Of a stretch of DNA of 64,000 nucleotides, positions 13,733 to 36,069 are shown in pieces (the stretch's first letter is position 1; the number at the start of each line of letters is the position of its first letter). Under the pieces are notes generated by a model. That model saw nothing but the letters and a program-made list of their open reading frames with translations. It made no database searches and was not told the origin of the DNA. Made by a program: the position numbers and the translations under genes. Origin of the DNA: Rhodococcus pyridinivorans (lineage in GTDB: Bacteria; Actinomycetota; Actinomycetes; Mycobacteriales; Mycobacteriaceae); contig NZ_FNRX01000002.1 in assembly GCF_900105195.1 (NCBI RefSeq), positions 3,782,001-3,846,000 on the forward strand, in the 5' to 3' direction.

Positions 13733-13895
13733 AACGCGAGTGAGGCACGGCACGAATCCGCGCGGTGTCCTGCCGATTTCCGGCCTGCCTCTCCACAGCC
13801 CGTGCGCGCACCCGGTGAACTCGTCCGCCCCGCTCGGCGTTCACCGGGCTAGCCTGTCTGTCCGTACGGCGTCAGCACTCGGGAGAAGAGGTCGG

Positions 13896-15425
13896 ATGGG
13901 CGAACACATCGGTCGCGACCTGTTCCGTCATCTCGTCGCCGACGAAGCGGACGAGTACCTCGCGGTGATGGACTGCTTCACCGACCTCCTGCTCGCCGAT
14001 CTGTCCGCCGACGATATCGCGGTCTCGTGTGCGCGGCGCGGGGTGGCGCTCGACATCGCGGTCGTCGATGCCCGGTGTCGCAGCCTGGTCCGGTGGGGCA
14101 ATCTCGCACTCACCAGCGGCGGAACCGACGGTGGCGGCTCCCACCGGCGGAGCGCTCCCGAGACCGCCTCGACCGAGGTCCGTGCCCGATACCGGCCGAC
14201 ACCGGCCGGGCTGCGGGTGCACCGCGAGACCGGCAGGCTTCTCTCCACCTCCGACGACGTGCGCGGCGTGGCACGCGTGTCGCTCCGTTGTGTCGCGGAC
14301 GGGCTCGCCCGCATCGAGGAGCTGCTGGTGGACGACGGGAACGTGCCCGATCGGGACGAGCTGGCCGCCCACGTCACCGCCCTGTTCGCGCACCACCGGA
14401 TGTTCACCGACAGCGTCGCCGATTTCTATTCGCACCTCGCCGAGATCCTGAGCCGTCTCGAGCACTCCGGCCGTCCCGAACACTCATCCGATCGCGAACG
14501 CGCCGGGGCGGTCGACGATCACGCGGAGACCAAGAACCTGCTCCTCGACTACGTCGACGTCATCGGTTCGGACGTCGAGCGCCTCGCCCCTCTCGTCGCC
14601 GGCAGGCTCGACCGGATCAGGCCGCGTCTGGACTCCCTGCTCGCCGCGTTGCGCGAGTCCGGCCTGCCGAACACCGTGCCCGGGTCCCCCGGTCGCCGTC
14701 GCACCGACTGGGACGAACTGGCGCAGTGGTACGCCGAGGACGCCGGCCCGCGCCGCGTGCGCGAGGCAGCGGCGGAGGCGCTGAACCGGCTGCTCGTGCG
14801 CACTCGGCGGATCATGGCGAGCACGCCGGGCTTCTCGCACCGCGCAGATCTCCTGCGCCTGGCCCGGTGGTTCACCGAGTCCTCCGACGAGCAGGGCCAC
14901 CGGTTGTTCGCCGCGACCTTCGGTGCCTTCCCGAGCCGGCACCTGCTGCTCGGCCCCGACGAGCCCGACCCGCGAGTGGGTGCAGGCACGTCGTGGTGGC
15001 GGGCCGATCCCGTCGTCGTGCCCGTGTCGTTGCGCGAACGCGGCGACCACACGTCCCTCGGGGCCGTCGGCCGACTCCCCGATTCGATGCCCGGCCGGGT
15101 CCGGGCCGACGAACTCGCCCGGCGAGAGTCGCGCCGCCGCTCCGACGCCGTCGCCGAACTGAGTGCGGCGGGCGACCTGCACGGAGCGGACCTGTCGGCG
15201 GAGGCGCGCGACGTCCTGCTCGACGTCCTCGCCGCCGCGCTCGCGGGCCACCTCACCACCGACGGTCCGGTGCAGGTGGACGATCCCGATCTCGGGTTGT
15301 CGCTGACGGCGGAGCCCGGCGCCGACACCGTGGTGCACTCCCCCGACGGCGATCTCACCGTGCACGGTTTCTCGTTGCGCACGTCGGTCACGGCATCGCT
15401 CGATCACAGTGCGGCGGCGCCATGA
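13896..15425 (+). CDS. jetA: Wadjet/Ept SMC-defence subunit JetA (DUF2397, MukF-like kleisin)
   Basis: Kleisin-like subunit of a type II Wadjet (EptABCD-like) SMC complex, 509 residues. The whole protein matches the TIGR02677/DUF2397 pattern: an N-terminal winged-helix-like part (DLFRHLVADEADEYLAVMDC), a long helical middle (DYVDVIGSDVERLAPLVAGR) and a C-terminal portion with TSWWRADPVVVPVSLRERGD. It should bridge JetC heads and bind JetB. The ATG has GGGAGAAGAGG upstream. Its stop overlaps the jetB start (ATGA). As part of the known system it helps the complex recognise and act on small circular plasmids. The family call rests on sequence style and on synteny with the two genes after it. Confidence 0.88.
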   Translation: MGEHIGRDLFRHLVADEADEYLAVMDCFTDLLLADLSADDIAVSCARRGVALDIAVVDARCRSLVRWGNLALTSGGTDGGGSHRRSAPETASTEVRARYRPTPAGLRVHRETGRLLSTSDDVRGVARVSLRCVADGLARIEELLVDDGNVPDRDELAAHVTALFAHHRMFTDSVADFYSHLAEILSRLEHSGRPEHSSDRERAGAVDDHAETKNLLLDYVDVIGSDVERLAPLVAGRLDRIRPRLDSLLAALRESGLPNTVPGSPGRRRTDWDELAQWYAEDAGPRRVREAAAEALNRLLVRTRRIMASTPGFSHRADLLRLARWFTESSDEQGHRLFAATFGAFPSRHLLLGPDEPDPRVGAGTSWWRADPVVVPVSLRERGDHTSLGAVGRLPDSMPGRVRADELARRESRRRSDAVAELSAAGDLHGADLSAEARDVLLDVLAAALAGHLTTDGPVQVDDPDLGLSLTAEPGADTVVHSPDGDLTVHGFSLRTSVTASLDHSAAAP

Positions 15426-16567
15426 GCACCTCGTACGCGAGCACGGTGTCCGGGGACGTCTCCGGTCGGCGGGACGCGGCGCGGGCGCTGCTGCAACAGC
15501 CGATCGTCACCGCCGCGAGCGAACGGGAGACCTTCGACCTCGTTCGGCGCCACGCCCCGGCCCTGAAGTCGATGTTCGCCGACCGCCTCGGATACCGGCT
15601 CGTCGTCGAACCGACCTTCGCCCGTCTGATCAAGGCACCGCTCGGGCCCACCTCACCGCACCGGGCGCTCCGCCACGCCGACGGCACCGAGTTCGGCGCG
15701 ATCACCTACGCGTGTCTCGCGCTGGTGTGCGCGGCACTGCTCGAACCCGGGACCGGCGAGAGGGTGTCCGTCGACGACCTGCTCGAGCAGGTGCGCGCCG
15801 ATGCGCGCGAGAACGGGATCGTGTTCGGCGACCCGGTGTCCGAGGAGCGGAACCTCGCTGCGGCCCTGCGCGTCCTCGAGGAATGGGGCGTGATCGCCGA
15901 GTCCGGTCACGGGGACGAGGTGAGCGGCGACGAGGTGAGGGGCGACGGGCCGCATCTCGACGTCCACCGCGACCTGCTCTCCCAGCTGCTCGACACTCCC
16001 CTCCATGGGATGCCCGGTCCCGCAGCGGCACTCGCACGTCATGAGCACGAACCCGCCGCTCTCCGCCTGTACCGCAGGCTCGTCGAGGACCCGTTCGTCG
16101 CGCGCGACGAACTGGACGACGAGTCGGCGACGATCCTCGCCCGCGACCGGCACGAGCTCGCCCGGATGCTGGAGAACGACTTCGGCCTCGTGCTCGAGGT
16201 GCGTGCCGAGGGCGCGCTCGCGTACGACCCGGCCGGCGTGCTCACCGACGAGGCGTTCCCGGGGTCGGGCACCCTGAAGCACGCCTGCCTGCTGCTCCTG
16301 GCCGAACTCACCGAACGGTTCGGCGACTCGGCGGCGACCACATTGCACGTCGACGCGCACATCCTCGACTCGGTTCTCGCCGATCTCGCCGCCGTGCGTT
16401 CCCGCACCTGGAAGAGCATCTACGTCCGCGATTTCGCGCTCCTGCGCCGGGACGTCGTGGCTCTGCTCTTCCGGCTCGGGCTGGCGCGACCGCACGAGAA
16501 CGGACTCGAACTGACCGCACCCGCCGCCCGCTACCGCCCCGTCCCCGCCGAAAGCAAGTGTCGATGA
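15422..16567 (+). CDS. jetB: Wadjet/Ept SMC-defence subunit JetB (DUF2398, MukE-like)
   Basis: KITE-type winged-helix subunit of 381 residues, TIGR02678/DUF2398 family. Recognisable blocks are DLVRRHAPALKSMFADRLGY and LVVEPTFARLIK near the N-terminus, FGAITYACLALVCAALLEPG, the ERNLAAALRVLEEWGVIAE helix-turn-helix, LARDRHELARMLENDFGLVL, and a C-terminal wing TWKSIYVRDFALLRRDVVAL. It should bind the JetA kleisin. Both ends overlap neighbours by ATGA, so JetA, JetB and JetC are made in a coupled ratio. A duplicated GDEV motif around residues 164-171 is a minor slippage insert. Confidence 0.9.
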   Translation: MSTSYASTVSGDVSGRRDAARALLQQPIVTAASERETFDLVRRHAPALKSMFADRLGYRLVVEPTFARLIKAPLGPTSPHRALRHADGTEFGAITYACLALVCAALLEPGTGERVSVDDLLEQVRADARENGIVFGDPVSEERNLAAALRVLEEWGVIAESGHGDEVSGDEVRGDGPHLDVHRDLLSQLLDTPLHGMPGPAAALARHEHEPAALRLYRRLVEDPFVARDELDDESATILARDRHELARMLENDFGLVLEVRAEGALAYDPAGVLTDEAFPGSGTLKHACLLLLAELTERFGDSAATTLHVDAHILDSVLADLAAVRSRTWKSIYVRDFALLRRDVVALLFRLGLARPHENGLELTAPAARYRPVPAESKCR

Positions 16568-19500
16568 CCCACTCGTCCGACCCGTCCGCCCTCGACGAGA
16601 ACTCTCCACCCCGTTTCCCGGATCGCTGGCGTCTCCACCGCGCCGGCATCGTGAACGTGTGGCACTACCTGGACGTCGAGTTCGTCCTGTCCGGTGGGCG
16701 GATGATCCTGCGCGGCACCAACGGATCGGGGAAGTCCCGCGCCCTCGAGATGTTGCTGCCCTTCCTGCTCGACGCCGACCGCAGGCGCATGGACGCGACG
16801 GGCGCCGCGAAGGTCGATCTCGACGAACTCATGCGTACCGGGGCCTCGGACACCACCGACCGTGTCGGCTATCTCTGGCTCGAACTGGCGCGCCCCAGCG
16901 GACATTTCACCGTCGGGGCGCAGGTCCGGCACCGCGCCGACGCCCGTCGCAGCGACGTGCACTTCTTCACGACACCTTTGCGTGTCGGCACCGAGTTGCA
17001 CCTCGTCGATGACGCCCGCATCCCGCTCTCGCGGGAGCGACTCGCCGAACTCATCGGTGCCGACAACCTCACCCGTGATCCGGAGCGGCATCGCGAGACC
17101 GTGCGGAAGTCGGTGTTCGGCCTGCACGCGGAGACGGGACGCGAACGCTACGACGGCCTGCTGCAACTGCTGCACACCCTGCGCTCACCCGATGTCGGCC
17201 ACCGCATCGACGAGGGACGCCTCCCTCAGATCCTGTCGGATGCGCTGCCACCTCTGACGGAGAACATGCTCGCCGAAGCGGGAGGTCGCCTCGACCTGCT
17301 CGGTGACACCCGTCAGGAACAGGTCCGTCTCGAAGCGGCGCACGCACACGTGCTGCGGTTCCACGAGGTGTACCGGCAGTACGCTGCGGATCTGCTGCGC
17401 GCCGGCGCCGAGACCGCGCGCGACCTCGCGCAGCGGGTCGTCGAGACGCGACGCGCACTCACCGTCGCGGAAGCCGAGGCGGCCGACCTCGACGCGCAGG
17501 CCGCCGCCGCGGACACCCGCCTGAAGGAGCGCCGCGACCAGGTCGCCGAACTCGACCGCGCGATCCGCGGACTCGAGACCCACGAGATGTTCCGGTCCGC
17601 GGACGATCTCGCGCAGCGCCAGCTCGCCGTCGATGCGCTCCGCCGCGCCGCCGAGCACGCAACCGCCGCCGCCGATCGCAGCCGCATGCAGGAACGGCGC
17701 CACACCGACCACGCGGCCCGCCTCCTCGACGAACTGACCTTCTCGGTCACGCGTGCCGCGAGACGGCTTGCGACGGTAGGTCGCGACCTGCTGTCGGTGG
17801 GTCTTCCGCACGACACCGCGCCGACCACGCTGCACTTCTCCGCCGACCGTCCACCCGCTGTGCTCGAGCCCGTGCGCACCGGCATCGACGACACCACCGA
17901 GCAGGTGGTGCGGCCGGTGGTCGCGACGGTCTCCCTCGACGCCGGGCACGTCGACGAGGTCCGGGACGCGATCCTGCGTGCCGCCGAGGCGACCCGTCGC
18001 CGGCGGGACCAAGCGGGTCGGCGACTGCTCGAGGCGCGTCGACTCGACGCCGCCGCGCATGCGGTCCGGGAAGCCGAGGCGGCGGCCGACCGCGCGGCCC
18101 GCGACGCCGAGCAGCGTGCCGTCGAGGCCGCCGAGACGGATGCCGGTGTCGGTGCGGCCGCCGCCGGTCTGCAGCACCGGTGGCGCGAGTGGATCACCGC
18201 CGACCGCACGACGGCTCTGCTGCCGGAACTCGATCGGGATCGGGTCATCCTGATGCGCCGACTGTCCACGCGACTCGACGCACTGATCGACTCGTCCCCC
18301 ACCGACGCCGGGGACACGGACTCCGAGGACGTCGACGTCGATTCGGCACTCGCCGAGCTGGATTCGCTGCCCACGACCGCCGCTCGGTCCGCCCTGAGCG
18401 ACCTCGCCGGCGCCCCGGCCGAGCGCGAGCGCCGCGAACGTGAGGCGCGGACCGCGCGCGAGGACCTCGTCCGCGAACAGGCGGCACTCGACGCGATCGG
18501 CGAGGGACCGGAACAGGCGCCCTGGCACGTGCGCACCGACGGTGTCCCCCTGTGGCGGGCGGTCGAGTTCGTCGACACCCTCGGGGACGACGATCGCGCC
18601 GGAATCGAGGCGGCGTTGCTCTCCGCGGGTTTCCTCACCGCCACGGTCGACGGCGAGGGCCGCTTGCGTGCGCTCGGCGGCCAGGTCCTCGTCTCGCCGC
18701 GCGGTGAACCACCGGCGCAGCCCCTGTCGACGGTCCTGCGTCCCGACCCCGAGGCCGACGTACCGCGCCCGGCGATCGAGGCGGTCCTCAACACGATCGG
18801 ATTCGAGGACGCCACCGCGGTGGCCTCGGTCTCACGGGACGGCCGCTGGCACAACGGAGTTCTGCGCGGGCGCCACACCGCCGAGGCCCCGCGCAGCATC
18901 GGCAGTCCTGCCCGGGAGGCCGCAACCGCGGCACGTCGGGTGCGTCTCGACGAGATCCGCGCCGAACTCATCCGGATCGACCTGGCGGTGGAACAGCTGC
19001 GCGTCGACTATCCCGACGCGGCGCACCGGCGGGCGGAGATCGACGCACACCTGTCGACCGCGCCGACCTCACACGCTCTGCGCGCCGCGCTCGAACGACG
19101 TCGGCACGCGTACGCGCACGTGCGGTCCGCGGCGAACACCGCGGTGGAACTGCGCGAGCGGGCGACGACGCTGCGTGCTCGCTGGACCGCCGAGCTCGAC
19201 GCACACCGCACAGCGTGCGAGCACTTCGGCGTGCCCGGCGATGTTCCGGAACTCGAGGCGCTGGTCGCCGGATGCGCCTCCGCAGAGACACTGTGCACCG
19301 AGCTGGCACGCGATCTCGGTGACGTCCTTGCTGCCCACGTCCGGTTCACGGATGCCGCCGAACGGTGCGTGCAGGCCACCGCCGAGCGGATCGACTCGGA
19401 GGAGATCGCCGAATCGTGCCGCTACGAATGGCACGCGAAGGCCGCGGTGGTCGCTGCCCAGACCGCCGCTGTCGACGTCGACGCCGCCGACCTGGCGCAG

Positions 19501-20790
19501 GAACTGCGTGACTCGGAGGCCGAACGGGCACGCGCCGACGAACAGTTCCGGCGCACGGTCGCCCATCGCGACCATCTCGGCCGTGCCGTCGCCGAGGTGC
19601 TGCAGCGATGTGCTGCCGCACGCGAACGGCTCGACCGCGACCGTCGCGAACTCGCCGCGGCCGCCGAACTGCTCGCCGCTCACCTGCAGCTGCCCGAACT
19701 ACGCGGCGCACTCGAGGAGGATCCGGAGTCGGACTCCGCCTCTGCCCGGACGGTTCTGCCTCCCGTCCACCTCGAGGATCCGGATCACGTGCTCTCCGTG
19801 GCCCGCACCCTGCTGGCCACGTTGCCGCCACGCACGGGAGTCGACGAGAACGCGATGCTCGTCGCGCTGCAACAGTTCGACCGCGACCTCACGGCCCGGT
19901 TCGACATCGAGCACACGGTGACGCACGGCGCCCATCGCGTCCGGATCGCCGGGGCGGGTGACGACACCACGCCCGCGGGTCTCTCAGTCACCCTGACCCG
20001 GCAGGTCGAGGACGGCCGGCGGGCACTGTCGCAACGCGAACACGACGTGTTCACGGGATTCGTGCTCGGCGGTGTGGCCGACGAACTGCGCCGGCGGATC
20101 GAGCGGGCACGACAGGTGATCGCCGCGATGAACGACAGTCTCGCCGACAGCCGCACGACGCACGGGATCGGCGTGAGGATCGAGTGGCGCCCCGGTGGCG
20201 AGGACGCCGACGCGGCGCGGCTGACGCAGCTGCTCACCGCCACCGAGCGGTCACCCGAGGATGCGTCCGAACTGGTCGGGGTGCTGCGGCGCCGGGTGGA
20301 ATCCGCCCACACCGCCGATCCGTCCGCCGGCTACGCGCAGCACCTGTCGCAGGCACTGGACTACCGGCGCTGGCACGAGGTCGAGGTGACCATCCTCGGC
20401 CCCGAACCGGACCGGGAGAGGCGGATCTCCGCGCGCGCCAAGATATCCCAGGGTGAGACCCGATTCGTGTCGTACGTGGCGCTGTTCGCGGCGGCGGACG
20501 GCTATCTCTCGGGCCTACCCGACACCGGCACCGCACTGCGGCTCGTGCTGCTCGACGACGCGTTCGCCAAGATCGACGACCCGACGATCGGTGAACTCAT
20601 GGGTCTGCTCGTACGGCAGGATATCGACTTCGTCATGACCGGGCACGCACTGTGGGGTTGTGTGCCGGAGGTGCCCGAGCTCGACGTCTACGAGGTCCGG
20701 CGACTCGCCGACGGCGCGGCCGTGACGACCCGCGTGCACTGGGACGGGCGCGTCCGGCAACTCCGACCGCTCACCGAGCTGCAGACATGA
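16564..20790 (+). CDS. jetC: Wadjet/Ept SMC-like ATPase JetC (TIGR02680, MukB-like)
   Basis: SMC-type DNA-translocating ATPase of 1408 residues. Walker A GTNGSGKS is at residues 51-58, the ABC signature segment KISQGETRFVSY at about 1293-1304, and Walker B LVLLDDAFAKID at about 1327-1338; between them lie long Ala/Glu/Arg-rich coiled coils split by a globular middle. This is the full length of the family with no motif missing, so the motor should be active. Mycobacterial EptC restricts plasmids through such a motor. The chosen ATG gives an ATGA overlap with jetB; a GTG 6 bp earlier is less likely. Downstream there is only a 40-bp palindrome and a convergent thiolase gene; the expected JetD nuclease gene is absent. 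Confidence 0.94.
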   Translation: MTHSSDPSALDENSPPRFPDRWRLHRAGIVNVWHYLDVEFVLSGGRMILRGTNGSGKSRALEMLLPFLLDADRRRMDATGAAKVDLDELMRTGASDTTDRVGYLWLELARPSGHFTVGAQVRHRADARRSDVHFFTTPLRVGTELHLVDDARIPLSRERLAELIGADNLTRDPERHRETVRKSVFGLHAETGRERYDGLLQLLHTLRSPDVGHRIDEGRLPQILSDALPPLTENMLAEAGGRLDLLGDTRQEQVRLEAAHAHVLRFHEVYRQYAADLLRAGAETARDLAQRVVETRRALTVAEAEAADLDAQAAAADTRLKERRDQVAELDRAIRGLETHEMFRSADDLAQRQLAVDALRRAAEHATAAADRSRMQERRHTDHAARLLDELTFSVTRAARRLATVGRDLLSVGLPHDTAPTTLHFSADRPPAVLEPVRTGIDDTTEQVVRPVVATVSLDAGHVDEVRDAILRAAEATRRRRDQAGRRLLEARRLDAAAHAVREAEAAADRAARDAEQRAVEAAETDAGVGAAAAGLQHRWREWITADRTTALLPELDRDRVILMRRLSTRLDALIDSSPTDAGDTDSEDVDVDSALAELDSLPTTAARSALSDLAGAPAERERREREARTAREDLVREQAALDAIGEGPEQAPWHVRTDGVPLWRAVEFVDTLGDDDRAGIEAALLSAGFLTATVDGEGRLRALGGQVLVSPRGEPPAQPLSTVLRPDPEADVPRPAIEAVLNTIGFEDATAVASVSRDGRWHNGVLRGRHTAEAPRSIGSPAREAATAARRVRLDEIRAELIRIDLAVEQLRVDYPDAAHRRAEIDAHLSTAPTSHALRAALERRRHAYAHVRSAANTAVELRERATTLRARWTAELDAHRTACEHFGVPGDVPELEALVAGCASAETLCTELARDLGDVLAAHVRFTDAAERCVQATAERIDSEEIAESCRYEWHAKAAVVAAQTAAVDVDAADLAQELRDSEAERARADEQFRRTVAHRDHLGRAVAEVLQRCAAARERLDRDRRELAAAAELLAAHLQLPELRGALEEDPESDSASARTVLPPVHLEDPDHVLSVARTLLATLPPRTGVDENAMLVALQQFDRDLTARFDIEHTVTHGAHRVRIAGAGDDTTPAGLSVTLTRQVEDGRRALSQREHDVFTGFVLGGVADELRRRIERARQVIAAMNDSLADSRTTHGIGVRIEWRPGGEDADAARLTQLLTATERSPEDASELVGVLRRRVESAHTADPSAGYAQHLSQALDYRRWHEVEVTILGPEPDRERRISARAKISQGETRFVSYVALFAAADGYLSGLPDTGTALRLVLLDDAFAKIDDPTIGELMGLLVRQDIDFVMTGHALWGCVPEVPELDVYEVRRLADGAAVTTRVHWDGRVRQLRPLTELQT

Positions 20791-26284: not shown

Positions 26285-26610
26285 ATCGCTCTCCCTGCTC
26301 GTAGTCCGGCCTGTCGACGCCGTTGGGCGCGAGCGTAGCGAAGACCCTCCCGCAATAAAGCGTTTACTCCCGGCGGGTTGTGATGTATCCCGCCGTCACC
26401 GGAGTTAACACGTGCGCTACACTTGCCATTGCTGCTCGCGCGCTCCACCGTCGCAACGCACGGCGCATTCGGACAAAGACGTCTGCATTCACACACATCG
26501 TCTCCGGCACACGTCTATGCACCTCAGGAGCTGCGCCTTCCCACGCGTTCCCCTTCTTCGCATCGTCACTGCCGGTCGACGTCGAATTCGATGCACCGAG
26601 GAGGACGTCC
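26285..26610. other. Divergent promoter region, 326 bp
   Basis: The plus-strand frame of the downstream gene stays open through most of this region, but its Arg/Ser/Thr-rich translation is not like a protein extension, so it is read as leader. It contains a 7-bp dyad CGGCGGG-N11-CCCGCCG at 26371-26395 and a TACACT -10-like hexamer at 26418-26423, which would leave a leader of about 180 nt. An A/T-rich stretch (CAATAAAGCGTTTACT) near 26352 probably belongs to the aldehyde dehydrogenase promoter. No riboswitch could be recognised. Confidence 0.5.
26371..26395. promoter_or_regulatory. Inverted repeat CGGCGGG-N11-CCCGCCG
   Basis: Perfect 7-bp arms placed just upstream of the candidate -10 of the glutamate-synthase-like operon. 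It could be an operator or a small hairpin; no cognate regulator is adjacent. Confidence 0.35.
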
Positions 26611-29600
26611 GTGACGCACGCCAGTGACACCGGCCTGTACGACAGCACGCTGGACAAGAGCAGTTGTGGTGTCGGTTTCATCACCCGCAAGGACGGCGTG
26701 CAGACCCACGACGTGCTCACCCGCGGTCACGAGGCCCTGTGCGTCGTGCCGCACCGCGGTGGCATGTCCGCCGAGGGTGTCGGCGACGGAGCCGGCATCA
26801 ACGTGGACCTGTCGGTCGCCTTCTTCTCCGAGATCACCGGAACACCCTTGCAGGAAGGGCACTTCGGTGTCGGAAACTTCTTCCTCCCCACCGATCCCGC
26901 GGCGCATGCCGATGCCGAGGAACTCGTCTCGTCGGCACTCGCCGGAGCCGGGGTCACCGTGCTCACGATGCGCGACGTCCCCGTCGACGACAGCGTGTTG
27001 CGTCCTGCCGCAACGAAATACCAGCTGCCGATCCGTCAGTGGATCTTCACGCGGCCCGACGCGTGCGACTCCGTCGACGAGTTCGACCGACTGCTGCACG
27101 GCGTGCTCCTCGAGGTCGAGGCCCGCGCCTACACCGAGCCGGAACTGGGCGGGCTGTACCCGCTCTCGCTCAGTGCGCGCACGCAGGTTCTCAAGAACCG
27201 CTTGAACTCTCACGAGGTCATCCCGTACTTCCGCGATCTCACCGATCCGCGGCACGCGGTGCACACCCTGTTCTTCCACACCCGGTTCTCGACGAACACC
27301 GATCCGCATCCGACGATGGCGCAGCCGTTCCGCCTCATAGCGCACAACGGTGAGCTGAACACCGATCGCAAGAACCGGCTGTTCGAGGGCGCCCTCGCCC
27401 GCGCGATGGGCCGTGACATCATTCGCCCGCCGGGACAGTCCGACAGCTGCCGCTTCGACCAGACCCTGGCCTCGCGTATCGCCCACAACGAACTCGACCT
27501 CGTCACCGCCGTCGTGCAGATGATGCCGCCTGCCTGGGAGAACGACACCGAGCTGTCGCCACAGGTCCGCGCGATGCTCGAGTTCTTCTCCCTGTACGAG
27601 GAGAAGAACGACGGCCCCGCGGCGCTGGTCTTCGGCAACGGCACCGTCGTCGGCGCGCGCCTCGACCGCCTCGACCGCCTCGGCCTGCGTCCGCTGCGCA
27701 CCGTGGAGACCGAAGAGTACCTCGCCGTCACCTCCGAGGCCGGCCAGTTCGACTTCGCGCCCGAGACCGTGCTGCGTCGCGGCCGCATCGAGGCCGGTGG
27801 CATGCTGTACTTCGATCACCGCACGCGCCGCTCCTACGGAGCGGATGAGGCGCTCGAACTTCTTGCTGCCCCGCAGAATTACGCGTCGCTCGTCGACGAG
27901 GCCCGCCGCAGTCTCGATGCCCTGCCCGAGGTTCCCGCCGAGAAGGCCGGTTCCCCGCTGCGCTACAACGGCGATCTCGAGCGTTACCAGCGCTACGTGT
28001 CCTACAGCATCAACCAGGAATCCTTCCGGTTCATGCTCGACCCGATGCTCGCGTCGGGTCAGGAGCGCATCTCCGCGATGGGTTACGGCAACGCCATCAA
28101 CGCGCTGTCGGATCAGGAAGGCGGTGTGGCCAAGTACTTCTCGCAGCGCTTCGCCCAGGTCACCAACCCGTCGCTGGACTCGATCCGCGAAGCGGACGGC
28201 ATGACCCTGCGCGTCGCGCTCGGTGCTCGCCCCGGTAGCGGTGCTCCCGTCTCGTCCGCGACCCAGATCGTGGTGCCCACCCCGATCCTCACGCACCTCG
28301 ACATGCTGCGTATCCGCGAGCAGTCCGACACCCCGGTGCGGCGTTTCGAGATGCTGTACTCCCCCGTCTTCGACGACGCCAAGGCGAACGCGGCCGCGCT
28401 CGCCGCCGCGATCGACGGTACGGCCGAGGCCATTGCCGATTTCGCCCGCGAATCCGGTGGCATCGCCGTGCTCACCGACCGCCACGTCTCCACCGACCGC
28501 GCCGGACTGCCGATGGTGCTCACCGTCGCCGCGGTCAACCAGCGCCTGATCGACGAGGGATTGCGTCTGCGCGTGTCCGTCATCGTCGAATCCGGACAGC
28601 TGTTCTCGTCGCATCACATCGCCGCGACCCTCGGTTTCGGTGCCGCTGCGGTGTATCCGCTCACGGTGCAGATGCGCGCCGAGGAGAAGTTCGGCGACGA
28701 TGCCGACGCCGCGTTCCTGAAGTTCCGCAAGGCTGCGGAGAAGTCGCTCATGAAGACGATGGGACGCGTCGGCCTGTGCACCGTCGAGTCGTACATCGGC
28801 GGTGAGTTCTTCGAGCCGAGCTATCTCGACACGAGTGACGAGGTGCTCGCGCGCTGGTTCCCGAACGTGAAGTCCCCGGTCGGCGGTGTCGGTTTCACCA
28901 CCCTCGCGCAGGCCGTCGCCGACTGGCACCGTCGCGCTCTCACCGTGGAGACGGAGAAGGACGTCCCGCTGCTGGGTCTGTTCAAGGAGCGCGCCGAGGG
29001 CGCCGGTCACTCGTTCGGCACGACCGCCGTGCGCGGCTTCGTGGACATGACCGAGGAGCCCTTCGCGCTGCCCGTGGAGAAGGAGGCCGAGCCGGATCTG
29101 ACCGACGCGCTGCGTCTGCTGCCGCTGCACCGGCTCTCCGACGCGCACGGTCTCGACGACGCGTCGTACCGCTACGGCGGCTTCCGCGCCCTGACACCCG
29201 CCGAGATCGATGCCTTCGAGATCACCCCGGGTTACCGCGCGTTCGCCCGCACGATGGCCGACGAGCGCACACAGCGTCCCGCGGCGCTGCGCGACGTGCT
29301 CGCCCTGCCCGCCGACGTCACCTACGCCGTCACCGCCGAGGACTTCACCAAGGAGATGGGCCGCTTCGCGCGGTTCGGCAACAACTCGATGCTCGTGCGC
29401 GGGATCTCCGCGGCGCGGGTCGGTGAGAGCGAATTCGTCCTGCGTCTGACCGGTCCGCTCGCAGACGACCACCGTCGTCCCGATGCGCTCGCGGCCTCGC
29501 TCGTCGCGCGCTTCGGTGACGGCATCGTCTCGCACCGTTGCTACGGCGACACCCTGACCGTGCACGCGATCGGTGACGCCGCGCGCTATCTCGAGCAGGT

Positions 29601-32115
29601 CCGCCAGGCCCCGCTGAGCGTGCGGCTCGACCGGGTGCAGCCGGCGCACGAGATCACCCCGGCGCTCGCGTCGGGTGCGATGAGCCATGGCGCGCTCAAC
29701 TCCAACGCCCACGAGGCCGTCGCCCACGGCACCAACATGGTCGGCGGCATGTCGAACTGCGGTGAGGGCGGCGAGCACATCTCCCGCTACGGCACCATCC
29801 GCGGGTCGCGCATCAAGCAGTTCGCGTCCGGCCGCTTCGGTGTGTGGGCCGGTTATCTCGCCGATCCGATGCTCGAGGAGATCGAGATCAAGATCGCGCA
29901 GGGCGCGAAGCCCGGTGAGGGCGGCCAGTTGCCCGCCAAGAAGGTCACGGTGGAGATCGCCGCGGCGCGCGGTGCGACCCCGGGCGTCGAGCTGGTCTCG
30001 CCGCCGCCGCACCACGACACCTACTCCATCGAGGACCTCGCCCAGCTCATCCACGACGCCAAGGCGGCGCGGGTGCGGGTGATCGTCAAGCTCGTCTCCT
30101 CGGAGGGTATCGGCACGATCGCCGTGGGTGTCGCGAAGGCCGGCGCCGACGTCATCAACGTCGCCGGCAACACCGGCGGCACGGGTGCCGCCTCGGTGAC
30201 CTCGCTGAAGTACGCGGGCCGGTCCGCGGAGATCGGTGTGGCCGAGGTCCACCAGGCCCTCACGGCCAACGGTCTGCGCGACAAGGTCGTGCTGCGCTGC
30301 TCGGGTGCGCACCAGACGGCGTCGGACGTCATCGTCTCCGCGCTGCTCGGCGCCGACAGCTTCGAGTTCGGCACCACCGCGCTGATGATGCTCGGCTGCG
30401 TCATGGCGAAGAACTGCAACGTCAAGTGCCCGGCAGGTCTGACCACGAATCCCGAAGTGTTCAACGGCGATCCGCGGGCGATGGCCCAGTACCTGCTCAA
30501 CGTCGCGCACGAGACCCGAGAGCTGCTCGCCCGCCTGGGTCTGCGGTCGCTGCGCGACGCGCGTGGCCGCGCCGACCTGCTGCACCTGCTCGACCACCCG
30601 TCGAGCGTGGGCCGGCTGGACCTGCGGGCGATGCTCGCGGTGCTGCCCGAGGTGCACATCGACAATCCGGTCTACATGGAGAAGGACTACTCGCTCGACG
30701 AGGCGTGGGTGGCCCGGCTGCGCGAGGCCCTCGTCGATGCGAAGGAGCTCACCGTCTCGCTCGGCGACGGCGTGCAGCTGACGAACAACAACAAGAGCGT
30801 CGGCGCGCAGCTGGCGATCGACATCGAGCGCATGCTCAACCACGAGGATCTCGGCGCCCTGCCGGCCGTGCTCGACGACGAGCGCGGACGCCGGTGGCTA
30901 CGCGACGGCACCGTCACCATCACCACCTCCGGTTCGGCGGGCCTGTCCTTCGGGGCGTTCTGCAACGACGGCATGCACATCGAGCACACCGGTACCGCCA
31001 ACGACGGCGTCGGCAAGGGCCAGTGCGGCGGGCAGATCGTGCTGCACTCCCCCGGCGGCGGCAGCGACCGACGCGGCGGCAACGTGCTCATCGGCAACTT
31101 CGCGCTCTTCGGTGCGACCGGTGGTCGCCTGTTCGTCGAGGGTGAGGCCGGCGACCGCTTCGCGGTGCGCAACTCCGGCGCCACCGCCGTCGTCGAGGGT
31201 GTCGGCGAGTTCGCCTGCGAGTACATGACCAACGGCGCGGTGCTCAACATCGGCGAGTTCGGCAAGGGCTTCGGCAACGGCATGTCGGGCGGGTTCGTCT
31301 ACCAGTACGACCCCGAGGACCTGCTCCCCCGCAAGGCCAGCGCCGACTCGATCGTCCTCGGGTCGATCACCGGCGACGACCCGCAGGCCGCGATCCACAA
31401 CGCCGCCGTGCTGCAGCTGCTGCACCTGCACGTCGAGGCGACCGGCTCGGTGAAGGCCCGCTTCCTGATCGACAACTGGCAGGTCGAGCAGCACCGCTTC
31501 GCGTACGGCATGCCGCGCGCGCTGCTGCAGTACCAGGACCTCGACGAGATCCTCGCCGCAGCGTCGCGCAAGGACCTCGCCGCCGAGGTCGCCACGGCGC
31601 TGGTCGCGCACCAGGTGCGCAAGTTCAAGGAGAACTACCGCTCGGGTGTTCCCGTCGCCGGTGGTGTCACCCCGGACGCGACCGACACCGAGGCCATGTA
31701 CGCGCTGCTCAACAACTACACGGTGCTCGCCGCCGCGCAGGAGATGGCGCTGCAGAAGGTCCCCGGCGCCACCGACGTGTCGGATCCGGCGGTGCAGAAG
31801 GCCGCTCGCAATCTGCTGCTCACCGAGGACTTCTTCCTCGTCGCGAAGCTCGAGCGCTACGCCCTCGCGGCGATCGCCGACCACACCGACGAGCAGCTCG
31901 CGGCGCTGGTCGCCGACAAGCGCCTGAACGACTACAAGCAGGCCCTGGCCCTGCGCAACGTCCGCTCGGTCGATGCGCCGGGTACCTACGGCTGGATCCT
32001 CTTGCAGAGCCGCAAGAATCTCGACGCCGCAGGTCGCCTGCCCGGTTACGAGGAACTGTTCGCACGCAACGCCGTCCCGAACGTCCTCACCTCCACGATG
32101 GGAGTCTCCGCGTGA
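26611..32115 (+). CDS. Oversized glutamate-synthase-like protein (GltB family)
   Basis: GltB-type protein of 1834 residues, about 300 longer than usual bacterial GltB. Order: short propeptide, N-terminal nucleophile Cys19 in SSCGVGF, class II amidotransferase with HNGELN near 245, central domain, FMN synthase barrel from about 1010 (GAMSHGALNSNAHE, then SNCGEGGEH), iron-sulfur cysteines C1263, C1269 and C1273, and the Gly-rich beta-helix (about 1385-1600). An insert of about 115 residues precedes the barrel and about 190 residues extend the C-terminus. It should release ammonia from glutamine and aminate 2-oxoglutarate or a relative. The GTG has GAGGAG upstream. Its stop overlaps the diflavin reductase start (GTGA), and no gltD is present. 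Confidence 0.9.
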   Translation: MTHASDTGLYDSTLDKSSCGVGFITRKDGVQTHDVLTRGHEALCVVPHRGGMSAEGVGDGAGINVDLSVAFFSEITGTPLQEGHFGVGNFFLPTDPAAHADAEELVSSALAGAGVTVLTMRDVPVDDSVLRPAATKYQLPIRQWIFTRPDACDSVDEFDRLLHGVLLEVEARAYTEPELGGLYPLSLSARTQVLKNRLNSHEVIPYFRDLTDPRHAVHTLFFHTRFSTNTDPHPTMAQPFRLIAHNGELNTDRKNRLFEGALARAMGRDIIRPPGQSDSCRFDQTLASRIAHNELDLVTAVVQMMPPAWENDTELSPQVRAMLEFFSLYEEKNDGPAALVFGNGTVVGARLDRLDRLGLRPLRTVETEEYLAVTSEAGQFDFAPETVLRRGRIEAGGMLYFDHRTRRSYGADEALELLAAPQNYASLVDEARRSLDALPEVPAEKAGSPLRYNGDLERYQRYVSYSINQESFRFMLDPMLASGQERISAMGYGNAINALSDQEGGVAKYFSQRFAQVTNPSLDSIREADGMTLRVALGARPGSGAPVSSATQIVVPTPILTHLDMLRIREQSDTPVRRFEMLYSPVFDDAKANAAALAAAIDGTAEAIADFARESGGIAVLTDRHVSTDRAGLPMVLTVAAVNQRLIDEGLRLRVSVIVESGQLFSSHHIAATLGFGAAAVYPLTVQMRAEEKFGDDADAAFLKFRKAAEKSLMKTMGRVGLCTVESYIGGEFFEPSYLDTSDEVLARWFPNVKSPVGGVGFTTLAQAVADWHRRALTVETEKDVPLLGLFKERAEGAGHSFGTTAVRGFVDMTEEPFALPVEKEAEPDLTDALRLLPLHRLSDAHGLDDASYRYGGFRALTPAEIDAFEITPGYRAFARTMADERTQRPAALRDVLALPADVTYAVTAEDFTKEMGRFARFGNNSMLVRGISAARVGESEFVLRLTGPLADDHRRPDALAASLVARFGDGIVSHRCYGDTLTVHAIGDAARYLEQVRQAPLSVRLDRVQPAHEITPALASGAMSHGALNSNAHEAVAHGTNMVGGMSNCGEGGEHISRYGTIRGSRIKQFASGRFGVWAGYLADPMLEEIEIKIAQGAKPGEGGQLPAKKVTVEIAAARGATPGVELVSPPPHHDTYSIEDLAQLIHDAKAARVRVIVKLVSSEGIGTIAVGVAKAGADVINVAGNTGGTGAASVTSLKYAGRSAEIGVAEVHQALTANGLRDKVVLRCSGAHQTASDVIVSALLGADSFEFGTTALMMLGCVMAKNCNVKCPAGLTTNPEVFNGDPRAMAQYLLNVAHETRELLARLGLRSLRDARGRADLLHLLDHPSSVGRLDLRAMLAVLPEVHIDNPVYMEKDYSLDEAWVARLREALVDAKELTVSLGDGVQLTNNNKSVGAQLAIDIERMLNHEDLGALPAVLDDERGRRWLRDGTVTITTSGSAGLSFGAFCNDGMHIEHTGTANDGVGKGQCGGQIVLHSPGGGSDRRGGNVLIGNFALFGATGGRLFVEGEAGDRFAVRNSGATAVVEGVGEFACEYMTNGAVLNIGEFGKGFGNGMSGGFVYQYDPEDLLPRKASADSIVLGSITGDDPQAAIHNAAVLQLLHLHVEATGSVKARFLIDNWQVEQHRFAYGMPRALLQYQDLDEILAAASRKDLAAEVATALVAHQVRKFKENYRSGVPVAGGVTPDATDTEAMYALLNNYTVLAAAQEMALQKVPGATDVSDPAVQKAARNLLLTEDFFLVAKLERYALAAIADHTDEQLAALVADKRLNDYKQALALRNVRSVDAPGTYGWILLQSRKNLDAAGRLPGYEELFARNAVPNVLTSTMGVSA

Positions 32116-33875
32116 CCACCACCGGCCCGTTCATTCCCCTCGACGCTCCGTTCACCGCCGATCAGCGGTCGTGGCTCTCCGGCTTCGTCGCCGGGATGCA
32201 GACCCGCCTGTTCTCCGGGGGTCCCGCCGCCGATGCCGGGACCGTCGGCTCGGCGACTGCTCTGCACGTGCTCTACGGCTCGCAGACCGGCAATGCCGAA
32301 GCCGTCGCCGAGGACGCCGCGGCTGCAGCGCGCACCCAGGGCTTCGCGCCCGTCGTGTGCGCTCTCGACGACATGGACCTCGACCGGTTCGCCGGTCTGG
32401 GCCAGGTCCTGATCGTCACATCCACCTACGGCGAGGGCGAGATGCCCGACAACGCCGAGCTGTTCTGGGATGCGCTGTCGGCCGAGAGCGCGCCGCGCCT
32501 CGACGGCATGAACTTCGCGGTGCTCGCTCTCGGTGACACGGGGTACGACGGGTTCTGCCAGGCCGGCAAGCTCATCGATATGCGTCTCGAGCAGCTCGGT
32601 GCGCAGCGCATCGTGCCGCGGGTGGACTGCGACGTCGAGTTCGAGGAGCTCGCCGCGACGTGGATCGCGGAGACGCTGCCGCTCGTCGCGGCCGTCGAGG
32701 GCATCGTGGGCGATGGTGCTCCCGCTCCCGCGGCACCGGCGGCACCGGCCCGGGCGAAGTCGCAGTGGACCCGCAAGAATCCCTATCCGGCGGTGTTGAC
32801 GTCGAACGTGCTCCTGTCCGGGGAGGACTCGGCCAAGGAGATTCGGCACTACGAGTTCGCGCTCGCCGATTCCGGTCTCGAATACGAAGCGGGCGACGCG
32901 CTGAACGTGGTGCCCGTCAACGACACCGAACTCGTGCACGCGATCCTCGGTCGGCTCGGTCTCGACGGCGCGGCCGTCCCCGAGGGTCACGACGACACGC
33001 TCGAGCACCTCCTCACCTACAACTACGAGATCACCGCTCCGTCCGTCGATCTCCTCGAGGAGATCGAGAAACACACGGGTAACGAGGAACTCACCTATGT
33101 GCTGCGGCACAGCGACAAGGCCGCGCTCGACGAATGGTTGTGGGGCCGCGACATTCTCGACGTGCTCCTGCTCGATCCCGCGCCCGAGCTGTCGGCCGAG
33201 CAGTTCCTGGCGCTGCTGCGTCCGCTGCAGCACCGGGCGTACTCGATCTCGTCGAGTCCGAACGCGTGCGACGGTTCGGTGCACCTGACGGTCGCGGCGG
33301 TGCGCTACGGCACCGACGGCCGCGAGCGTCGCGGGGTGTGCTCGACCTTCCTCGCCGATCGTGTCGGTGAAGGCAAGGTCGGCATCTTCGTGTCGAAGAA
33401 CAAGGCCTTCCGCGTGCCCGCCGACGACACCGCACCGATGATCATGGTCGGTCCGGGCACCGGCATCGCACCCTTCCGCGGCTTCCTGCAGGAACGTCGC
33501 GCACGGGGTGCGACGGGGAAGAACTGGCTGTTCTTCGGCGACCAGAAGCGCGGCTGCGACTACATCTACGAACAGGAGTTGGCCGAGTTCGCCGACTCGG
33601 GTGTGCTCACGCGCCTGGACCTGGCGTTCTCCCGCGATCAGGCCGAGAAGATCTACGTGCAGACCCGCATGAAGGAGCACGGCGCGGAACTGTTCGCGTG
33701 GCTCGAGGAGGGTGGACACTTCTACATCTGCGGCGACGCGTCGCGGATGGCGAAGGACGTCGACCGTGCGCTGCACGAGATCGTCGCCGAGCACGGCGGC
33801 ATGAACGACGAGCAGGCCGCGGAGTACGTCACCACCCTCAAGCGCGAGAAGCGGTACGTGCGCGACGTGTACTGA
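32112..33875 (+). CDS. Diflavin NADPH reductase (CysJ/CPR-like) coupled to the glutamate-synthase-like protein
   Basis: A 587-residue reductase. An N-terminal flavodoxin-like FMN domain (VLYGSQTGNAEAVAED, TSTYGEGEMPDNAELFW; about 50-195), then the FAD domain (RAYSISSSP near 375, RRGVCSTFLADR), then the NADPH domain (MVGPGTGIAPFRGFLQ near 447, FFGDQKRGCDYIYEQEL, CGDASRMAKDVD) and a C-terminal RDVY aromatic end. This is the full CysJ/cytochrome P450 reductase layout. No sulfite reductase haemoprotein or P450 is adjacent; instead the GTG start overlaps the stop of the GltB-like gene, so it most likely passes NADPH electrons to that protein in place of GltD. The partner assignment is inferred from coupling. 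Confidence 0.92.
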   Translation: MTTTGPFIPLDAPFTADQRSWLSGFVAGMQTRLFSGGPAADAGTVGSATALHVLYGSQTGNAEAVAEDAAAAARTQGFAPVVCALDDMDLDRFAGLGQVLIVTSTYGEGEMPDNAELFWDALSAESAPRLDGMNFAVLALGDTGYDGFCQAGKLIDMRLEQLGAQRIVPRVDCDVEFEELAATWIAETLPLVAAVEGIVGDGAPAPAAPAAPARAKSQWTRKNPYPAVLTSNVLLSGEDSAKEIRHYEFALADSGLEYEAGDALNVVPVNDTELVHAILGRLGLDGAAVPEGHDDTLEHLLTYNYEITAPSVDLLEEIEKHTGNEELTYVLRHSDKAALDEWLWGRDILDVLLLDPAPELSAEQFLALLRPLQHRAYSISSSPNACDGSVHLTVAAVRYGTDGRERRGVCSTFLADRVGEGKVGIFVSKNKAFRVPADDTAPMIMVGPGTGIAPFRGFLQERRARGATGKNWLFFGDQKRGCDYIYEQELAEFADSGVLTRLDLAFSRDQAEKIYVQTRMKEHGAELFAWLEEGGHFYICGDASRMAKDVDRALHEIVAEHGGMNDEQAAEYVTTLKREKRYVRDVY

Positions 33876-33944: not shown

Positions 33945-34026
33945 CCGAGCGCGTGTTGCGAACCTCCCCGGAGGCACCATCGGAATGCCTTAGACTGTGC
34001 TGCAGGTCACACGAGGGAGTAGCTCG

Positions 34027-36069
34027 ATGCCCGATCGCTCCGCAGCACGCAGCCGGCAGGCACCGACCGCCGACAGTCCCGACCGGATCCGCAACGTTGC
34101 CCTGGTGGGGTGCAGCGGCTCCGGGAAAACCACCCTCACCGAATCCCTCGCCGTCGCAGCGGGCGCCGTCGGGCGCGCCGGGCGCGTGGCAGAGGGCACC
34201 ACGGTGTCCGACTACGAGGGGATCGAGCAGCGCCACCGCAGGTCGGTGCAGCTGTCCGTCGTCCCCCTCGAATGGAACGACATCAAGATCAACCTGATCG
34301 ACATGCCGGGACACCCCGACTTCGACGCCGAGGTCCGCGCAGCCCTGCACGCGGCCGACGCGGCGATCTTCGTCGTCTCCGCCACCGATCCCATCAGCGC
34401 AGCGACCCGCGCGCTCTGGCGCGAATGCGACGACGAGGCGATCCCCCGCGCGATCGTGGTGAACAAACTCGATGTCGCCCGGCACAGCTTCGACGACATG
34501 CTCACCGACTGTCACGTCGCCTTCGGATTGGGACCGGACACCCTGAGGGCCATGTTCTATCCCGTCTACGACGGCGACCGCCCGATCGGGTCGATGGGTC
34601 TGCTGACGGGCCGCAGCTACGGCGAACCCGGTCCGTGCCCGGTGTCCACCGAAGCGCGCGAGAGCCTCGTGGAGGCCATCTCCGGCCAGGACGACACGCT
34701 CATGGAGCGGTTCATCGCCGGCGAGCAACTCGACACGGCCTCCCTGCAGGAAGGACTCACCCGCGAGATCCTGGCGTGCACCCTGCACCCGGCCGTTCCC
34801 GCCGACGAGACGGGGATCGGTGCCGTCGAACTGCTCGAATTGATCACCACCGGATTCCCCGCACCGACGCAGCGCGGTCGTGGTGCACCGCCGTGCGATC
34901 CGGACGGTCCGCTCGCCGCGCAGGTCGTGCGCGTGGCCGGCGACTCCTATGTCGGGCGGATCAGCCTGGTGCGCGTGTACTCCGGCACGCTGCGACCCGA
35001 CACGATCGTCGCGCTGGCCGACGGCGACCGCGACAGCCGCGAACGCATTCCCGCCCTGACGAGCCCGTTCGGCAAGCAACAGCGCCCGGTCGGTGAAGCC
35101 GTGGCGGGAGACATCACCTCCGTCGGGAAGCTCGCGACGGCACAACCCGGTGACGTCCTGTACGACCCCGACCATCCGGTCCCGCTCGACCGGTGGCCCA
35201 CCCCGACTCCCCTGCTCCCCGTCGCGATCGAGGCACACACCCGCACCGACGACGACAAGCTGTCCCAGGCCCTGTCGCGCCTCGCCTCCGAGGATCCCGC
35301 GCTGCGCGTCGAGCAGAATCCCGAGACCCATCAGCTCGTGCTGTGGTGCACGGGTGAAGCGCACGCCGAACTGGTCCTCGAACGGTTGCGCACCCGGCAC
35401 GGTGTCCAGGTCGACACGGTCGAGCATCGGGTGCCGCTCGAGGAGACCTTCGCCGGCCCCGCGAAAGGCCACGGCAGGCTCGTCAAACAATCCGGCGGGC
35501 ACGGTCAGTACGCGGTCGTCGACGTCGAGGTCGAACCACTGCCGGTGGGCAGCGGGGTGGTGTTCGCCGAGAAGGTGGTGGGCGGTGCGGTTCCGCGCCA
35601 GTTCATCCCGTCCGTGGAGAAGGGCGTGTACGCGCAGGCCGAGAAGGGCGTGACGACGGGATATCCGCTCGTCGACGTGCAAGTCACCCTGGTCGACGGC
35701 AAGGCCCACTCGGTGGATTCGTCCGACGCGGCCTTCCAGGCCGCCGCCGGGCTGGCCCTGCGGGATGCGGCCTCACACAGCACCGTTCGCGTACTCGAAC
35801 CGGTCGCCGCCGTGCGGGTGATCGTGCCGGAGGAGCATCTCGGCGCGGTCCTCGGCGATCTGTCGGCCCGGCGCGGACGGGTGCTCGGCACCGAATCCCC
35901 CGAGCCGGGTGTCGCCCTGTTGCGCGCGGAGGTTCCCGAGCTCGAACTCGGCCGCTATCCGGTGGAACTGCGGGCCATCACGCAGGGCACCGCCGATTTC
36001 GCCCGCCAGTATCTGCGGCACGAACCGATGCCCGAGAATCTCGCGGCCCGCTACGGCGAGTCGGACTGA
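34027..36069 (+). CDS. fusA2: Elongation factor G-like GTPase (EF-G2)
   Basis: Translation-factor GTPase of 680 residues, homologous over its length to EF-G but of the mycobacterial EF-G2 (Rv0120c-like) group. G1 is GCSGSGKTT rather than the AHVDAGKTT of housekeeping EF-G, G3 is DMPGHPDF and G4 NKLD; the C-terminal EF-G IV/V part (GGHGQYAVVDVEVEPL, SVEKGVYAQAEKG) is present. It lies away from rpsL/tufA, as EF-G2 does. EF-G2 of M. smegmatis is reported not to replace EF-G in translocation, so a regulatory or ribosome-associated role is likelier. The ATG has GAGGGAG upstream; a TTG/ATG 30 bp earlier is discounted. Confidence 0.9.
   Translation: MPDRSAARSRQAPTADSPDRIRNVALVGCSGSGKTTLTESLAVAAGAVGRAGRVAEGTTVSDYEGIEQRHRRSVQLSVVPLEWNDIKINLIDMPGHPDFDAEVRAALHAADAAIFVVSATDPISAATRALWRECDDEAIPRAIVVNKLDVARHSFDDMLTDCHVAFGLGPDTLRAMFYPVYDGDRPIGSMGLLTGRSYGEPGPCPVSTEARESLVEAISGQDDTLMERFIAGEQLDTASLQEGLTREILACTLHPAVPADETGIGAVELLELITTGFPAPTQRGRGAPPCDPDGPLAAQVVRVAGDSYVGRISLVRVYSGTLRPDTIVALADGDRDSRERIPALTSPFGKQQRPVGEAVAGDITSVGKLATAQPGDVLYDPDHPVPLDRWPTPTPLLPVAIEAHTRTDDDKLSQALSRLASEDPALRVEQNPETHQLVLWCTGEAHAELVLERLRTRHGVQVDTVEHRVPLEETFAGPAKGHGRLVKQSGGHGQYAVVDVEVEPLPVGSGVVFAEKVVGGAVPRQFIPSVEKGVYAQAEKGVTTGYPLVDVQVTLVDGKAHSVDSSDAAFQAAAGLALRDAASHSTVRVLEPVAAVRVIVPEEHLGAVLGDLSARRGRVLGTESPEPGVALLRAEVPELELGRYPVELRAITQGTADFARQYLRHEPMPENLAARYGESD

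Follow-up and report, generated by a model that had tools for sequence, protein, structure and literature searches.

In a 64,000-nucleotide stretch of the Rhodococcus pyridinivorans genome (assembly GCF_900105195.1, contig NZ_FNRX01000002.1, positions 3,782,001 to 3,846,000; hereafter the window), a gene for a GltB-like glutamate synthase (GOGAT) large subunit of 1834 amino acids (26611–32115, + strand) directly precedes, on the same strand, one for a CysJ-type diflavin reductase of 587 amino acids (32112–33875). The original prediction described such a pair, overlapping by GTGA, and proposed that the reductase stands in for GltD. The two open reading frames, their Pfam assignments and the overlap were all confirmed: the stop codon of the large subunit (TGA, 32113–32115) overlaps the GTG start codon of the reductase (32112). 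The 1834-residue start is a choice, because the frame remains open upstream as far as a GTG at 26380, which would give 1911 residues; an AGGAGG ribosome-binding site read from the sequence (26599–26604, + strand) favours the GTG at 26611.

The large subunit carries the Pfam domains GATase_2, Glu_syn_central, Glu_synthase and GXGXG in the order typical of GltB/alpha subunits, and its solved-structure matches were GOGAT large chains in five of five sequences. Along the + strand, an 18-codon propeptide (26611–26664), presumably removed as in known GOGATs, precedes the glutaminase nucleophile Cys19 (26665–26667), which opens the glutaminase domain (residues 19–424, 26665–27882). This is followed by Glu_syn_central (residues 461–735, 27991–28815), the flavin mononucleotide (FMN)-binding synthase domain (residues 991–1311, 29581–30543) and the GXGXG beta-helix domain (residues 1416–1588, 30856–31374). 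Catalytic residues are strictly conserved: Cys19 and the HRG, RFSTNT, HNGE and QSDS motifs of the glutaminase, as well as QGAKPGEGGQLP and SPPPHHD of the synthase domain, were unchanged in all 77 aligned sequences. Compared with the solved chains of NADPH-dependent GltBD (6s6s, 2vdc, 1ea0 and 7mfm, from Azospirillum brasilense and Bacillus subtilis), the four Pfam domains, the Cys nucleophile, the synthase motifs and the three cluster cysteines are the same.

Two features set it apart from ordinary GltB. The cluster loop (Cys1263, Cys1269 and Cys1273; 30397–30429, + strand) has the spacing C-x5-C-x3-C, which also holds throughout the 77 aligned sequences (in one of them the second Cys position is unresolved) and in 88 loci (a count that includes overlapping records); in contrast, the canonical C-x5-C-x4-C was found in five solved sequences representing three enzymes and in the two ordinary proteins compared. 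The second is a C-terminal domain of ~190 additional residues (1641–1834; 31531–32112, + strand), predicted to be all-helical with a mean predicted local distance difference test score (pLDDT) of 79.8. It gave no Pfam hit above cut-off and no convincing family or fold match; 28 relatives are 38–89% identical to the window's copy. The extra domain and the shortened loop are likely adaptations to a new partner, and could serve docking or electron entry.

In place of a GltD beta subunit, with flavin adenine dinucleotide (FAD) and two [4Fe-4S] clusters, the adjacent gene encodes a diflavin reductase with the domain order of CysJ: Flavodoxin_1 (FMN; residues 53–183, 32268–32660), FAD_binding_1 (residues 220–413, 32769–33350) and NAD_binding_1 (NADP; residues 445–551, 33444–33764), all on the + strand. 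Its best solved-structure match is the flavoprotein of NADPH-sulfite reductase (6efv), which has the same order of flavodoxin, FAD and NADP domains and aligns over residues 45–587. Unlike CysJ proper, it does not reach the cut-off of the NCBIfam cysJ model (TIGR01931; 609.2 bits against 668.15) and its neighbour is GltB-like rather than CysI. The original prediction had allowed that the reductase might instead serve a distant CysI, a possibility we rejected after searching 35 genomes with NCBIfam TIGR02041. CysI scored above cut-off in eight of these, and each of the eight cysI genes lies within ~60 bp of a second CysJ, 39–45% identical to the window's reductase. The R. pyridinivorans genome is not among the eight; its best match of 130 bits (cut-off 756.55) is what a ferredoxin-type enzyme would give.

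To place the pair in a wider context, we scanned genome contigs and kept the best 80 of 118 confirmed relatives (the 80 loci below). In all 80, the gene immediately downstream, on the same strand, encodes a reductase homologue 46–93% identical to that of the window, which excludes the two genes being chance neighbours. The intergenic gap, measured in 76 of these loci with the reductase start chosen to give a length nearest 587 amino acids, has a median of 5 bp and is ≤30 bp in 55. A sample of 396 genomes from the window's phylum, searched with the extra C-terminal domain, yielded two further carriers (G288 and G298) from the same family as R. pyridinivorans, both with an adjacent reductase. 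Among plasmids, the nine records with a large subunit >60% identical are the same nine that have a reductase >57% identical, adjacent by coordinates in nine of nine, while the next matches listed after them are at 37.5% and 46.9%; the nine span five genera, four being one Ketogulonicigenium plasmid type. Dissociation of the two genes, which the original prediction had named as evidence that would speak against it, was thus seen in none of these sets.

The two proteins also share their history. Across 77 pairs (the window and 76 loci, four loci with cut or broken genes being excluded), their distances correlate with r = 0.962, a value reached in none of 1000 permutations; their trees have 55 of 74 splits in common, and none of the splits with support ≥0.95 (56 and 38, respectively) is in conflict with the other tree. 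The GltB-like protein and the diflavin reductase form a widespread two-gene module in distantly related bacteria; going by the names on their records, carriers include Rhodococcus, Nocardia, Mycolicibacterium, Leucobacter, Agrobacterium/Rhizobium, Corticibacter, Lampropedia, Pantoea, Erwinia, SAR92 and SAR116. Horizontal spread of the module is likely, because the tree joins the Pantoea group with Corticibacter and Lampropedia (betaproteobacteria) at a support of 1.0, SAR92 groups with alphaproteobacterial metagenome-assembled genomes (MAGs), and copies occur on plasmids.

No fusion of large subunit and reductase was found among the 120 of 212 homologues listed. A wider conserved operon was considered and rejected: when the neighbours were compared in 29 representative loci, a HemS-like gene was the sole one shared between genera, in a minority of them, and none was shared by distant groups. 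This HemS/ChuX-domain gene follows the pair in 10 of the 80 loci, every one actinobacterial and one of them holding a fragment, and also in G288 and G298. PF05171 scored over cut-off in six of seven such proteins, including the one encoded after the pair on a Tsukamurella plasmid, and below cut-off in the protein encoded after the Ketogulonicigenium pair. Among these genes (L031:15161-15985, L095:5460-6434 and others), several encode a cysteine-rich N terminus. In G288, a second, half-length reductase comprising only the FAD/NADP half is encoded further downstream, past the pair and its HemS-like gene (L095:4235-5407).

We then asked whether carriers also possess ordinary GltBD. The separate gltB and gltD that the original prediction advised looking for are present in the R. 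pyridinivorans genome (5.26 Mb, three contigs), at C2:319404-323918 and C2:317885-319330. Across 79 carrier genomes (33 + 46, locus L085 being left out), no second GltB was found in 31 (12 of 33 and 19 of 46). GltD matches in the former 12 were at best ≤62 bits; in the latter 19 they were ≤44 bits in 18, the remaining genome (G439, a MAG) having an isolated match of 148 bits at 30% identity. Where gltD is present, scores ranged from 237 to 1109 bits. One pair-only genome, that of Pantoea agglomerans HJS002, is recorded as a complete chromosome. Of 149 genomes sampled from the family of Pantoea agglomerans (G409), six carry the pair type, and five of these six gave no further GltB match; in 88 others every match is at the identity of the ordinary type or weaker, and 55 have no match, the 20 of these 55 that were listed being small genomes. 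Glutamate dehydrogenase of the PF02812 type is also absent from 16 of the 31 pair-only genomes; the large 180-kDa type falls outside this model. The pair thus seems to replace GltBD in many carriers, and in some looks like the sole glutamate synthase. In a record named Enterobacter ludwigii EnVs2 (L041), the large subunit shares 91% identity with one from Pantoea and ordinary GltB gave no match; the record may be a misnamed Pantoea relative.

Evidence from living cells comes from Pantoea ananatis. Strain AJ13355 is described as being without close homologues of the Escherichia coli GOGAT, its chromosomal gltB product is 64% identical to the Agrobacterium tumefaciens large subunit, and a gltB knockout is reported to result in glutamate auxotrophy (PMC12364357, citing Hara 2012 for the knockout); neither gltD nor cysJ nor sulfite reductase is mentioned in the main text of that paper. 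In our set, P. ananatis LMG 2665 (L043 = G429) has only a pair-type GltB, 67% identical to the Agrobacterium members, with the reductase adjacent. The AJ13355 gene (PAJ_RS19710) is therefore probably of the pair type, and the P. ananatis evidence supports an in vivo glutamate synthase function of this type.

Set beside the domain make-up, the conserved catalytic motifs, the strict pairing, the shared history and the absence of gltBD from many carriers, it is, in our judgement, probable that the pair is an NADPH-dependent glutamate synthase with a CysJ-type diflavin reductase in GltD's place. Genomic evidence supports this replacement, as originally predicted, and the two proteins would form a physical complex. 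In the proposed mechanism, Cys19 would hydrolyse glutamine, and the ammonia would travel to the large subunit's FMN site, add to 2-oxoglutarate and be reduced to glutamate, with electrons running along the route NADPH–FAD–FMN–[3Fe-4S]–FMN–2-iminoglutarate. We propose this route because of the one known for NADPH-GOGAT and because the FMN of the reductase, given the potentials of diflavin reductases, could reduce such a cluster directly. In NADPH-GOGAT, the FAD of GltD hands electrons to two [4Fe-4S] clusters, from which they reach the [3Fe-4S] cluster and then FMN, the [3Fe-4S] potential being −280 mV, or −190 mV with 2-oxoglutarate (PMC8097209).

Several points weigh against this reading. The large subunit scores 1039.9 bits against the NCBIfam GOGAT model NF008730, 7 bits under its cut-off of 1047. 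Within the window's phylum the pair is uncommon, occurring in 3 of the 396 sampled genomes (G288, G298 and that of R. pyridinivorans itself), and in the window's genome gltBD is kept, so that the pair there is a second copy. Many genomes in the pair-only set of 31 are drafts or MAGs, and support for the paired reductases as one group, against six others, is moderate (0.71–0.85). The P. ananatis knockout bears on the large subunit only, and we infer, rather than observe, that the gene concerned is of the pair type. Finally, in the open PubMed Central (PMC) literature, outside which most subscription papers lie, we found no description of the pair, and no biochemistry or purified complex of it.

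A different source of electrons is improbable, namely that the large subunit is fed by ferredoxin or flavodoxin and that the linked reductase is a general NADPH-driven reducer of this carrier rather than a subunit. Ferredoxin-dependent GOGATs do hold the same cofactors in a single chain (PMC8097209), and those compared (1llw and others) share the large-subunit domains of the window protein, whose own cofactors would be the same. A free carrier, however, would need no dedicated, co-inherited reductase, and both the strict pairing and the agreeing trees argue against one. Moreover, the window protein lacks ~20 residues that lie between aligned blocks of the ferredoxin-dependent chain 1llw (residues 914–934) and that we take to be the ferredoxin loop of the synthase domain, and it differs from this class in having a dedicated NADPH reductase gene and the extra C-terminal domain.

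Somewhat less likely still is that the enzyme merely resembles a glutamate synthase and has a different 2-oxo acid from 2-oxoglutarate as its amino acceptor, or forms another product. In its favour, the FMN domain reads S-G-A at a site occupied by D-G-G or D-G-K in the solved chains, and the cluster loop is one residue shorter; against it, the substrate-site motifs are invariant, 31 of the 79 genomes yielded no GltB besides the pair-type protein, and the P. ananatis gltB mutant is a glutamate auxotroph (PMC12364357).

That the reductase serves a sulfite reductase, a nitrate reductase, the HemS-like protein or some other acceptor, and is next to gltB by accident, is very unlikely: CysJ domains are used so elsewhere, the same genome has a nitrate-reductase/CysJ fusion-like frame of 1388 amino acids (C2:417823-421986) and a HemS-domain gene is next in 10 of 80 loci, but adjacency to gltB holds in all 80, 27 of 35 genomes have no CysI over cut-off while in the remaining eight it sits next to another CysJ, and no HemS-like gene was found in 70 of the 80 loci. 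The fusion-like frame, whose first part, judged by eye, looks like a molybdopterin nitrate reductase, would likewise have recruited a CysJ unit, 46% identical to the window's reductase; the fusion is one polypeptide, whereas the GOGAT partner is a separate protein. Electron transfer from a diflavin reductase to an iron–sulfur protein also has a likeness in Tah18/Ndor1 with Dre2, although that system is eukaryotic and has a role in cluster assembly.

Regulatory sequences offer a hint as to why GltD might be exchanged. An IdeR consensus was compared with 27 actinobacterial upstream regions, from 26 loci and the window, and 12 of them agree with it at 13 or more of 19 positions, eight of them at 15–16, some 60–130 bp before the approximate start. 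Elsewhere in these loci and the window, across 602,608 bases, there were three matches, all at 13, and 600 base shuffles of the 12 box-bearing regions gave none above 13. Upstream matches were also found in G288 (15 of 19) and on the Tsukamurella plasmid (14 of 19), and genes for a siderophore receptor and for an ABC transporter of siderophores lie close to the Ketogulonicigenium pair. These boxes, which precede some actinobacterial copies outside the window's clade, suggest an iron-sparing isoenzyme. Several points count against this. The 12 box-bearing loci are not 12 independent cases, because they come mostly from one clade (Nocardia and mycobacteria), and the box is absent from the nine Rhodococcus-clade regions, the window's own clade. 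Among 10 control stretches upstream of ordinary gltB, three reach 13 and two reach 12; a weaker box may therefore precede gltBD too. In four mycobacterial-type genomes (L135, L137, L139 and L141), an IdeR-like element (12–13 of 19) lies ~200 bp, by hand count, before the ordinary gltB match. We therefore offer only tentatively, as a joint and rather doubtful proposal, that the pair is an iron-sparing synthase, derepressed by IdeR at low iron in mycolicibacteria, Nocardia, Tsukamurella and relatives, and that it has displaced GltBD outright in Pantoea, a Leucobacter and marine SAR92/SAR116-type bacteria after horizontal transfer. If so, exchanging the two [4Fe-4S] clusters of GltD for FAD and FMN would save ~8 of 11 iron atoms per protomer.

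Elsewhere in the window, ~60 bases of the gltB leader (26420–26520) are strongly conserved over nine Rhodococcus-clade loci, with no Rfam match and no unusual folding. An EF-G-like protein of 690 amino acids is encoded ~120 bp 3' of the pair on the same strand (33997–36069), a neighbour shared, among the 29 representative loci, only with two other Rhodococcus. A Wadjet type II defence cluster with strong PADLOC matches occupies 13740–20790, comprising JetA2 (13740–15425), JetB2 (within 14027–16567) and JetC2 (16558–20790).

The glutamate synthase classes described in PMC8097209 are NADPH-dependent GltBD, the ferredoxin-dependent enzyme and the fused NADH form. If our reading is correct, the pair would add one more electron-delivery class to this central enzyme of nitrogen metabolism, present in soil, plant-associated and marine bacteria, and would account for a GOGAT without gltD in the industrially used P. 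ananatis. It makes testable the ideas that one synthase core can take electrons from either an iron–sulfur or a flavin partner, and that iron limitation may reshape nitrogen assimilation.

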